Assembly (NCBI RefSeq): GCF_000023225.1
Contig: NC_013173.1
Span: 1,056,501-1,120,500, forward strand
DNA length: 64,000 nt
From: Desulfomicrobium baculatum DSM 4028
GTDB taxonomy: Bacteria; Desulfobacterota; Desulfovibrionia; Desulfovibrionales; Desulfomicrobiaceae
Reading direction: 5' to 3'
Both the position numbers and the translations under genes were made by a program. Under the pieces are notes generated by a model that worked only from the letters and a program-made list of their open reading frames with translations, had not been told where the DNA came from and did not search any database. Each line of letters starts with the position of its first letter. Within the stretch, counting starts at the first letter, position 1. Below are positions 34,022-37,785 of the stretch, one piece after another.

Positions 34022-34771
34022 TTATTTCTTCTCCAGTCCGATTCTGTACTGAAAGTAAACGTCCTTCATGCTCGTGTAGTGATCAAAGGATTCTTCCTTG
34101 ATGCTCTTGTAGGCCGGAAGGTTGGCCGAGGCCGTGTTGGCTTTGTCATGTCCGATCAGAGCGTATTTGGCGCTGTCCGGGGTCACGAGTGAAAAGGGGT
34201 GTACAAAGGAGTCCGCAACGGAGCCCACTGCGTCACGCAGAGTGGTCGGCCCGAGGATGGGCAGTACGAGATAGGTGCCTGAATCCAGCCCGTAAAAGGC
34301 CAGAGTCTGGCTGAAATCTTCGGGTGAAGACTGCAGGCTCGGCATGTTGTGCGTGATGTGGAAAAGACCGCCCACGCCGAACACTGTGTTCAGGGCAAAC
34401 GACGCGGTCTCTTTGGCCATCTTGTCGAATTTGAATTGCAGCAGGGCGTTTATAAGACGGACGGGATACCCGAGGTTACGGTAAAAGTTGCCGAATCCGG
34501 CGCGGATGTCCGGGGGGAAGAATCCGGTGTAGACCGTATCGATGGGTGAGAAAACGTAGGTTATGAATCCGTCGTTAAACGAAAAAACTCCCCGGTTGAA
34601 ACCTTCCAGAGAGTCGGGATAGCCCCCGTTTTCCGCTGCATCATAGCTTTCCTCATATTCCTGCTCCGCTGCGACGTCTTGATTCAGGGAAGAACCGGCT
34701 TTCTTGCCGGCGCAGCCCTGTAGCAGAATGAGGCCCAAGGCCAGACAGAGCAGTAGAAGACGCTTATTCAT
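34022..34771 (-). CDS. mlaA: MlaA/VacJ-family outer-membrane lipoprotein
   Basis: 249 aa. Lipobox LQGC with Cys20; then the MlaA core (SLEGFNRGVFSFNDGF, GFFPPDIRAGFGNFYRNLGY, LNTVFGVGGLFHI, DFSQTLAFYGLDSGTYLVLP, GPTTLRDAVGSVAD). In the Mla system it removes misplaced phospholipids from the outer leaflet of the outer membrane. It is the last gene of the mlaEFDCA run and overlaps mlaC by 8 bp. Confidence 0.94.
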   Translation of the reverse strand: MNKRLLLLCLALGLILLQGCAGKKAGSSLNQDVAAEQEYEESYDAAENGGYPDSLEGFNRGVFSFNDGFITYVFSPIDTVYTGFFPPDIRAGFGNFYRNLGYPVRLINALLQFKFDKMAKETASFALNTVFGVGGLFHITHNMPSLQSSPEDFSQTLAFYGLDSGTYLVLPILGPTTLRDAVGSVADSFVHPFSLVTPDSAKYALIGHDKANTASANLPAYKSIKEESFDHYTSMKDVYFQYRIGLEKK

Positions 34772-35345
34772 TGGTTTTTTCCCTTAAAGTGGCAATGAGT
34801 TTATCGGGCGAATTGTTTTGCAGAATGCTCCGGAATTGGGAGCGGTAGTTTTTGATCAGGCTCACGTTTTCCACAGAAACATCGTAAACCTTCCACGAAA
34901 CATCTTTTCTGATCATGTAGTAAATGATCGGAATGTTCAAACTGGGGGACGTGACTGTTGTATGAACTTCAGCAAGAGTATCTGATTTGATGATTTCCTG
35001 GTTGTAATTCACCACTTCGCCATTATAGGTAATGGATTTTTTGAGATAGACCTGCTTGATGAGTTTCAGGAACAGGGGTTGGAATTCTTGTTGCTGCTCG
35101 GGAGTGAAAATTCTCCAATATTGTCCAAGGGAACGCTTGGAAAGCTCTTCCGAGTCGAAAAAATTGTCGACTACGGCTTCAATCTGGCGCAACTGCTCAG
35201 TTTTATTTGTTTCCGACTCATATTCAGGAGACGCCAGAATGCTCAGCACTTTGTCAATGTTGGCGCGAATGTAACTTGTCGGGTTGTCCTGCGACAGCGC
35301 TGTAGCCGGCAGGAGCAGGATAAAAAGAAGAAACAGTACTCTCAT
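34764..35345 (-). CDS. mlaC: MlaC/Ttg2D periplasmic lipid carrier
   Basis: 193 aa with a signal peptide (about 18 residues). Typical text: YIRANIDKVLSILASPEYES, FDSEELSKRSLGQYWRIFTP, EQQQEFQPLFLKLIKQVYLK, WKVYDVSVENVSLIKNYRSQ. MlaC carries phospholipid between MlaA and the inner-membrane MlaFEDB complex. It overlaps mlaD by 4 bp and mlaA by 8 bp. Confidence 0.94.
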   Translation of the reverse strand: MRVLFLLFILLLPATALSQDNPTSYIRANIDKVLSILASPEYESETNKTEQLRQIEAVVDNFFDSEELSKRSLGQYWRIFTPEQQQEFQPLFLKLIKQVYLKKSITYNGEVVNYNQEIIKSDTLAEVHTTVTSPSLNIPIIYYMIRKDVSWKVYDVSVENVSLIKNYRSQFRSILQNNSPDKLIATLREKTNE

Positions 35346-35800
35346 TTGTCGACACTTCCGAATACATATTTTGAAATCATTTCCTCAATATCGAGGGCAG
35401 CCTGTGTATCCATGAGGACCTCTTTGTCCTTCAAGAGCACGTCGTCGGCTCCGGGAATGATGCTCACGTATTTGTCGCCGATGAGCCCGCTGGTCTTGAT
35501 CGCCGCCGTGGAGTCAACGGGAATGCCTACGGCGTTTTCAATGCTCATGGTGATTACCGCCTGGTACAAGGTCTGGTCCAAAGAGATGCTCGACACTTTG
35601 CCCACCGCCACGCCGGAAATCTCCACGTTGCTGCCGGCCCTGAGTCCGTTCACAGCCGTGAATTTGGCGGTGATCGTGTAGGAGTCGCCGGAAAAAAAAG
35701 TCGTGTTCGCCAGGGTCATGGCCAGATAGGCGGTGCAGACCAGACCTATGATGATAAAAAGGCCAATGGAAAGATGCAGAGAGGAATTGTTGGTCTTCAT
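35342..35800 (-). CDS. mlaD: MlaD (MCE-domain) lipid transport protein
   Basis: 152 aa from the ATG at 35800, which overlaps the mlaF stop as ATGA; the longer in-frame form runs through the mlaF coding region. One N-terminal membrane anchor (about 10-30) is followed by an MCE domain (AKFTAVNGLRAGSNVEISGV, AVGKVSSISLD, VGIPVDSTAAIKTSGLIGDK). It forms the hexameric ring on the MlaE permease. Confidence 0.94.
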   Translation of the reverse strand: MKTNNSSLHLSIGLFIIIGLVCTAYLAMTLANTTFFSGDSYTITAKFTAVNGLRAGSNVEISGVAVGKVSSISLDQTLYQAVITMSIENAVGIPVDSTAAIKTSGLIGDKYVSIIPGADDVLLKDKEVLMDTQAALDIEEMISKYVFGSVDK

Positions 35801-36990
35801 ACGTACTTCTTGGATGTTGCAAGTGCTTCCTGAATGGCCGAATAGGCGGTCAGTTCTTTGTCTGTCAGCGCTCCGCCGATTTCGACCTGAAGTCTGTGTT
35901 TGTGACAATATGTTTCAATGGTCAGGTTGGTGAAGTATCCCTCAAGTTGATTCAGAAACATCTCAAGGGTCGACTCGTCTTCTGTTTTGTACGCCAGAAC
36001 CAGGATTTCCTTGGAAAACATGCCCGCGCAAGCGTCACTCGGCAGAAAGGTTTGCACGAATTTGGCCAGGTTCTTGATGAAGGCGTGTGCCAGCAGGTCG
36101 CCCTTGTAGTCGATCATGGTTCGCATGCCCAGGAGTCTGACCGTGACCAGGACAAGCTTTTCACCGTCTTTGGCTTCGGCCCCGAAGGCCTCGATTTTGC
36201 GCATGAGCGAGAGCCTGTTGTGTAGGCCTGTCAATTCGTCGATGAGCATCTCGTGACCATGCGTATAGGTGTAAAGCCCCGGATCCGAGGATTGTTCGAG
36301 GGCCACGGGCGAGCCGGAAAAGATGATCCTGCCCTCATCGAGGATGTTCACGGTATGGGCGATGTAGAAAATGTCCGGGATGTCGTGGGTGATGATCACC
36401 GCCGTGAAATTGAGCTGTTCATGGTAGCGGTGGATCATGGAGAAAACCGTCTTCTTGCGGATGGGGTCGAGGCCCGTGGTCGGTTCGTCGAAGAAGATGA
36501 TCTCCGGTTCGGTGACCAGCGCGCGGGCCAGGGCCACGCGTTTCTGCATGCCGCCTGAAATCTGTTTCGGGTACATCTGAGCCACTTCGGCCAGTTCGAG
36601 CTGTTCGATGCGGGAGCGGACCTTGTCTTCAATGTCCGCCTTTCCGAACGTGAATTTTTCCCGCAGGGGCAGGGCGATGTTTTCGAACACGGTCATGGAA
36701 TCAAAAAGCGCGTTGTTCTGAAACATGTAGCTGCAACGGTTCTTGATGGCCGAAAAGTCTTTTCGCTTCATGGTCGAATAGGGAAGCCCGTCAAAAATGA
36801 TCTCTCCGCTGTCGGCAGTGATCAGCCCGATGATGTGTTTGACCAGGACGCTCTTGCCGCCGCCGCTTTTCCCGATGATGGCAGTGATTTCGTTTCGCTG
36901 GATGTCAAAGGTCGCGCCCCGCAGAATATCCCTGCCGCCGAACGCCTTTGAAATGTTGCGAAGCTGAATGAGAGGAGTTGTGCTGCTCAT
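35797..36990 (-). CDS. mlaF: MlaF ATPase with C-terminal degenerate GGDEF-like domain
   Basis: 397 aa, about 130 longer than ordinary MlaF. Residues 1-240 are a complete ABC ATPase: Walker A IGKSGGGKSVLVKHI, signature ISGGMQKRVALARAL, Walker B EIIFFDEPTTGLDP, ITHDIPDIFYIA. From 251 the text DELTGLHNRLSLMRKIE is the classic opening of a GGDEF domain, and the rest has the right length and spacing, but the place of GGDEF (about 324-330) reads MFSKEIL, so it should not make cyclic di-GMP. It might bind a nucleotide or a partner and control lipid transport. mlaE lies 3 bp upstream. Confidence 0.88.
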   Translation of the reverse strand: MSSTTPLIQLRNISKAFGGRDILRGATFDIQRNEITAIIGKSGGGKSVLVKHIIGLITADSGEIIFDGLPYSTMKRKDFSAIKNRCSYMFQNNALFDSMTVFENIALPLREKFTFGKADIEDKVRSRIEQLELAEVAQMYPKQISGGMQKRVALARALVTEPEIIFFDEPTTGLDPIRKKTVFSMIHRYHEQLNFTAVIITHDIPDIFYIAHTVNILDEGRIIFSGSPVALEQSSDPGLYTYTHGHEMLIDELTGLHNRLSLMRKIEAFGAEAKDGEKLVLVTVRLLGMRTMIDYKGDLLAHAFIKNLAKFVQTFLPSDACAGMFSKEILVLAYKTEDESTLEMFLNQLEGYFTNLTIETYCHKHRLQVEIGGALTDKELTAYSAIQEALATSKKYV

Positions 36991-36993
36991 GGG

Positions 36994-37785
36994 TCACATC
37001 AAAAAGGATGTTATGACGTAGTCCGAGACCAGTACGTAAACGCATGACTGGACAACGGCGGATGTTGTTGAGTTGCTGACGCCTTCGGCCCCGGCACTGG
37101 ATTGGTTCTGGTGCGTGTAATATCCGCAGTAGCAGGATATGGTGATGACGATAAAGGCAAAGACGAAAGATTTTATGAACCCTCCGGTCACGTCGGACAG
37201 GAGCAGGCTCGATTGGATCTTGCTGAAAAAGATCCCCGAACGGGAGCTTAAGAGCACGGAGGAAAAATAACCGCCCAGGATGCCGACACAATCAAAAATT
37301 GCGGTCAGGAGCGGAAAACAGATCAGCGATGCGATGATCTTGGGCGTGACCAGATAGCGCACCGGGTCCACGTCCATGGTCGAGAGGGCGTCGATCTGCT
37401 CGGAGATGCGCATGATGCCGATCTCGGCGCTGATGCTCGACCCGGCCCGGCCGATGAGCATAATCGCCGTCAGCACCGGCCCGAGCTCGCGCACCAGGGA
37501 CAGGGCTACGGCAACGCCGAGCATTCCTTCGGCGCTGAACTTGATCAGGGTGTAGTAGCCCTGCAGTCCAAGGACCATGCCTGTGAAGAAGGCCACAAGA
37601 ATTATGATATTCAGGGATTTGAAGCCGATGAAATATATGTCGTAGAGGATTTTGGGTATGAGCCTGCGTATATGGATCATGCCCAGGACAGCCGTGAGAG
37701 AGAAGACTCCCCACTGACCCACGTTTTTGATGATACCGAGTGATGTTGCCCCGAGCAGTGCGGGGATGGCCAATATGTTTTTCAT
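36994..37785 (-). CDS. mlaE: MlaE permease
   Basis: 263 aa, five or six membrane segments. Typical of MlaE: FIGFKSLNIIILVAFFTGMV, LGLQGYYTLIKFSAEGMLGV, LVRELGPVLTAIMLIGRAGS, SAEIGIMRISEQIDALSTMD, VDPVRYLVTPKIIASLICFP. It is the inner-membrane channel of the Mla lipid transporter. The start overlaps the stop of the HAD gene by 4 bp. Confidence 0.95.
   Translation of the reverse strand: MKNILAIPALLGATSLGIIKNVGQWGVFSLTAVLGMIHIRRLIPKILYDIYFIGFKSLNIIILVAFFTGMVLGLQGYYTLIKFSAEGMLGVAVALSLVRELGPVLTAIMLIGRAGSSISAEIGIMRISEQIDALSTMDVDPVRYLVTPKIIASLICFPLLTAIFDCVGILGGYFSSVLLSSRSGIFFSKIQSSLLLSDVTGGFIKSFVFAFIVITISCYCGYYTHQNQSSAGAEGVSNSTTSAVVQSCVYVLVSDYVITSFLM

Follow-up and report, generated by a model that had tools for sequence, protein, structure and literature searches.

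Why does the ATPase of a phospholipid pump end in a domain that resembles a diguanylate cyclase? The question is raised by the mlaF gene of Desulfomicrobium baculatum DSM 4028, located in a window of 64,000 nucleotides, the whole stretch of DNA that was analysed. The gene is on the minus strand, which the sequence-only reading of this DNA had left out. The features of the locus are the following.

35797-36990, minus strand: fused mlaF-GGDEF reading frame, ATG at 36990 and TGA at 35797-35799, 397 amino acids (397 codons plus stop)
36265-36990, minus strand: MlaF ABC ATPase domain, residues 1-242 (Pfam ABC_tran, 2.4e-31)
35800-36246, minus strand: C-terminal degenerate domain of predicted GGDEF fold, residues 249-397 (Pfam GGDEF and AF2/Foldseek)
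36214-36240, minus strand: DELTGLHNR, the N-terminal motif conserved in GGDEF domains, residues 251-259 (from the sequence)
36001-36021, minus strand: MFSKEIL at the position of the catalytic GGDEF motif, residues 324-330 (from alignments)
36994-37785, minus strand: MlaE permease gene, 263 amino acids, without a STAS domain (Pfam MlaE, 5.1e-77; TIGR00056, 241 bits against a cut-off of 212)
35342-35800, minus strand: MlaD gene (Pfam MlaD, 5.4e-23), its ATG overlapping the mlaF stop (ATGA)
34764-35345, minus strand: MlaC gene (Pfam MlaC, 3.3e-45)
34022-34771, minus strand: MlaA gene (Pfam MlaA, 5.9e-61)

The fused MlaF supplies the ATPase to a phospholipid-transport operon that is complete (mlaEFDCA). 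In the Pfam search of the window MlaE lies upstream of it, and MlaD, MlaC and MlaA follow downstream. The same search found no mlaB or STAS gene among the genes of this operon, and the best five of eight STAS_2 matches in the genome are about 150 kb or more away from it. The fitness data for D. alaskensis G20 support an Mla role in the order, as the operon Dde_2297-2301 with homologues of MlaF, MlaD and MlaA displays common fitness defects when phosphate is limiting and in SDS (PMC5193443). The genome of the window has another MCE-type pair (L002, around C1:540058-541835), an MlaE that carries a STAS domain at its N-terminus and, after it, a short, ordinary MlaF-type ATPase of about 255 amino acids.

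Sequence comparisons show that the first part of the protein is an intact MlaF. Homology to the MlaF chains in PDB spans residues 3-242/243 (E 6e-49) and ends at 242-244, and the MlaF proteins of MlaFEDB from E. coli, Acinetobacter and Pseudomonas (6xbd, 6xgy, 7d06, 7cha) align end to end with residues 3-243 (E about 1e-48). The ATPase motifs are present as Walker A GKSGGGKS, signature SGGMQKR and Walker B IIFFDEP. The signature is of the Mla type (SGGM), with methionine at the position of the usual glutamine, a replacement that is a feature of MlaF (PMC7367683). The best NCBIfam match is MlaF PRK11831 (2e-54) with a score of 184.7 bits, below the strict equivalog cut-off of 441, and the best Foldseek match of the full-length model is the 6xbd MlaF with 37% identity. 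MlaF is thus the closest ABC ATPase, and mlaE and mlaD adjoin the gene; mlaE, mlaD and mlaC are operon neighbours in common with MlaFEDB. Two E. coli-type features are absent. The window operon has mlaA but no mlaB, and instead of an extended C-terminal handshake extension of about 25 amino acids the protein has a GGDEF-like domain of about 150 amino acids that is predicted to be folded. In E. coli that extension passes over the second MlaF and over MlaB, and MlaF depends on MlaB for its association with the complex (PMC7367683). The handshake extension is a feature of the solved MlaF structures and not a requirement of the family.

The nature of the tail was examined with profiles and structure predictions. 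Pfam GGDEF (PF00990) matches residues 250-388 with 27.8 bits in the whole protein (E 2.5e-6) and 31.1 bits when the tail is searched alone, against a cut-off of 23.8. The NCBIfam cyclase model TIGR00254 gives 18 bits, under its cut-off of 37.4, as expected for a degenerate member. Among 29 diverse single tails, 26 match PF00990 (best 1.5e-16), and a profile built from the 29 tails matches mostly GGDEF structures in PDB (best E 6.7e-23). The motif D-x-LTGL is conserved across the tails. The full-length AlphaFold2 model has a pLDDT of 81.6 with an alignment ten sequences deep, and its tail runs helix, helix, strand, helix, helix, strand, strand, helix, strand, helix. The structural alignment of the full-length model to PDB is largely limited to residues 4-278 and tells little about the tail, which was therefore also modelled alone; with an alignment of the same depth this gave moderate confidence (pLDDT 73.5, pTM 0.66). 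The top 50 Foldseek matches of this lone model are all GGDEF or cyclase structures (E about 1e-6 to 1e-4, TM about 0.56-0.76). The tail is, on the predicted structure, a domain of about 150 residues with a GGDEF fold, derived from a diguanylate cyclase. Pfam, the PDB profile and AF2/Foldseek agree with what had been proposed from the letters alone, an intact MlaF ATPase followed by a GGDEF-like tail in which MFSKEIL replaces the catalytic motif.

An apparent fusion could also come from a frameshift or misassembly that joins mlaF to an adjacent GGDEF gene. No frameshift was found at the fusion. The genome assembly is one contig of 3,942,657 bases, the fusion frame is also open in each of the 15 genus relatives searched, and the fusion recurs in independent assemblies. 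The overlap between the mlaF stop and the mlaD start likewise argues against an artefact. The open frame in the relatives and the ATGA overlap with mlaD refute this explanation, which is hardly credible.

The fusion is not confined to the window genus. When a fusion was counted if the match started on the ATPase side and ran well into the tail, the junction and tail were found in 40 of 247 genomes in a sample of the order, and the fusion in 52 of 395 genomes, with 19 family codes, in a sample of the phylum. The two samples together show that it is kept in at least 20 families of the phylum. Fused loci outside the order include, among the matches listed from a biased sample, a Syntrophaceae and Desulfobacterales MAGs. 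The fusion was found in none of 640 genomes (195, 299 and 146) from three other phyla in non-exhaustive searches that lacked a positive control. In a tree built with a quick method from 94 ATPase domains, all 46 fused forms group into a single clade (SH-aLRT 85) with one short form among them. The tree shows that the fusion probably has a single origin, early in the phylum. The earlier description of the fusion as a trait of this lineage was right in that the fusion is real but too narrow, since the order, phylum and tree counts point to an ancient architecture at the level of the phylum.

The one short form in the clade (L039, 3971-4741) is a tailless MlaF nested beside a fused form, and its mlaD starts 35 bases past the stop. 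This looks like a clean loss of the tail, and the locus is a natural deletion control. In most Desulfovibrionaceae examined, the short MlaF proteins at the same place in the operon (L153, L156, L158-L160, L163-L165, L170-L177, L181-L183) belong to another ATPase clade, together with the STAS-associated ATPase of the window genome. This suggests that the ATPase has been replaced in place within the mla operons of Desulfovibrionaceae. Other Desulfovibrionaceae genera (L155, L157, L167, L168, L180) have the order mlaE-mlaD-mlaC-mlaA with no ATPase gene between mlaE and mlaD, and the ATPase for these operons is presumably encoded elsewhere. In Bdellovibrio-type genomes (L056, L073, L075, L079, L092, L097, L102) the match extends over about 1000-1530 bases, compared with about 730 for an ordinary MlaF, and might represent a fused or tandem arrangement.

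It could be argued that a tail without its enzyme site is a non-functional leftover of the fusion event. The clean loss in L039 and the divergence of the tails, with a dN/dS 1.3-7.5 times that of the ATPase in seven of nine genus pairs, would fit such a leftover. However, a folded domain has been kept open in at least 22 family codes, with conserved columns, and the tail is under purifying selection, looser than the ATPase. The Nei-Gojobori estimates for the tail are 0.05-0.24 in eight of the nine genus pairs and 0.59 in the closest pair, in which there are few changes, and those for the ABC part are 0.02-0.13 in the same nine pairs. A leftover is therefore very improbable.

The residues that a cyclase needs have been lost throughout the family. 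The roles of the metal, guanine-contact and I-site residues are here presumed to be those of PleD. The GG[DE]E motif is found in none of 70 distinct tails in the alignment, nor is the catalytic metal-binding aspartate of the first strand. The guanine-contacting asparagine and aspartate are absent from the tallied positions in the 70 tails, where the eight commonest residues per position were counted, and neither is present in the window protein. An RxxD at I-site spacing (five residues before the motif) was found in one of the 70 tails and not in the window protein. These losses make canonical cyclase, GTP or c-di-GMP functions of the tail unlikely, and an active or product-sensing cyclase was ruled out as a candidate on the same residues. 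The control of lipid traffic by nucleotide binding, as worded in the sequence-only reading, is not supported for these sites; the tail may nevertheless bind a nucleotide at a re-used or new site.

In one alternative, the tail is a sensor that controls the ATPase of the pump, either by taking up a small molecule or a metal in the former active-site cleft or at a new site, or by redox switching of a conserved pair of cysteines. The domain is old and under selection although the enzyme site is gone, and the position of the guanine-contacting aspartate is occupied by Q or H in 59 of the 70 tails, which suggests a re-used pocket. GTP binding and ATP hydrolysis are both known among degenerate GGDEF domains (PMC10333796). 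The cysteines point in the same direction. A C-terminal cysteine a few residues from the end is present in 50 of 54 distinct tails from outside the window genus (L031-L040, L186-L215 and others) and ranks fourth in conservation among the columns of a region where the median identity between pairs is 29%. Another cysteine, before the 'DFSI-AG' strand, is present in 35 of the 54 and always together with the C-terminal one. A redox or metal role of these conserved cysteines is possible from their distribution. On the other hand, the tails lack the canonical residues for metal, GTP and the I-site, and nearly all members of the window genus have lost the aligned C-terminal cysteine, so a cysteine switch cannot be general. 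A ligand or redox sensor of this kind is possible but improbable. It is doubtful whether the phylum has a whole branch of phospholipid pumps in which a GGDEF-derived sensor controls an ABC ATPase in cis in response to a new signal other than a cyclic dinucleotide, such as a small ligand, a metal or cysteine redox; if true, this would be a kind of ABC regulation so far undescribed.

The tails share the fold and the D-x-LTGL-x-NR motif with diguanylate cyclases of family PF00990 such as PleD, SadC and DgcB but lack the catalytic motif, the metal aspartate, the guanine contacts and, in 69 of 70, the I-site. In this they resemble FimX and GdpP/YybT, where an inactive GGDEF domain is put to another use, in FimX tied to an ATPase (PMC10333796). 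The tail differs from both in being fused straight to the ATPase of an ABC transporter, with no EAL or DHH partner domain. Searches of the open-licence literature found no relevant paper on MlaF or MlaE combined with GGDEF or on ABC-GGDEF fusions. A further alternative is that the tail recruits a separate cytoplasmic protein to the Mla pump, for instance an effector of c-di-GMP, a GGDEF/EAL partner protein or a polar or division factor. Degenerate GGDEF domains do sit in complexes that control ATPases, such as FimX-PilZ-PilB (PMC10333796, PMC8389850), and the FimX GGDEF domain (3hva) is among the Foldseek matches of the tail model. The operons examined contain no extra genes and thus indicate no partner, and we regard a docking platform as unlikely.

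The best reading is instead that the tail is a non-catalytic domain that regulates MlaF or its dimerisation in cis, working like the C-terminal domain of MetN, because the MlaF homology ends where the extension starts, the operon lacks MlaB and there is a precedent in MetN and ModC. We infer this role by analogy and give it an even chance. The ferredoxin-like C2 domain of MetN in MetNI and the C-domain of ModC are likewise compact C-terminal domains after an ABC ATPase, and they act on the association of the nucleotide-binding domains (NBDs) from the same position (PMC7367683, PMC10710835). Foldseek aligns the full model along MetN, including both the ABC part and the C-domain, over 376 columns (rmsd 9.3). 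Unlike these domains, the tail belongs to a different, GGDEF-derived sequence family and has no known ligand. A structural or partner role, which had also been put forward, is still a candidate and fits better than control by nucleotides since the tail begins where E. coli MlaF turns to the handshake extension.

The history and the proposed mechanism are as follows. A GGDEF domain of the diguanylate-cyclase type was fused to the C-terminus of MlaF, once according to the tree and early in the phylum, where E. coli MlaF carries its handshake extension; it lost its active site and has been retained as a domain predicted to be folded and non-enzymatic. In the most likely mechanism, both tails of an MlaF2 dimer would lie beneath or next to the NBDs, in contact with one another or with the adjacent ATPase, and would act in cis on the paired NBDs, stabilising or biasing their open or closed state. 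They would then do by other means the job of the E. coli MlaF extension and MlaB. A simple rule that the tail replaces MlaB was also considered. Tailless MlaF proteins are found in operons without mlaB in L039, in L041 and in most Desulfovibrionaceae operons examined, so the tail is not strictly needed where MlaB is lacking and a plain replacement of MlaB is not demanded. The rule is weakened by these short MlaF proteins, found both among genomes of this order and within the clade of fused forms.

The regulation of the Mla pump is poorly understood, and the handles known in E. coli are the MlaF extension and MlaB. The phylum gives a natural alternative in a fused domain of predicted fold, with an ancient and probably single origin and one apparent natural loss in the same clade. 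The second system in the same genome uses STAS fused to MlaE, and the regulation of phospholipid traffic can therefore be tested by comparison. In the Mla pump of this phylum a dead diguanylate-cyclase domain appears to have been recruited into an ABC transporter.
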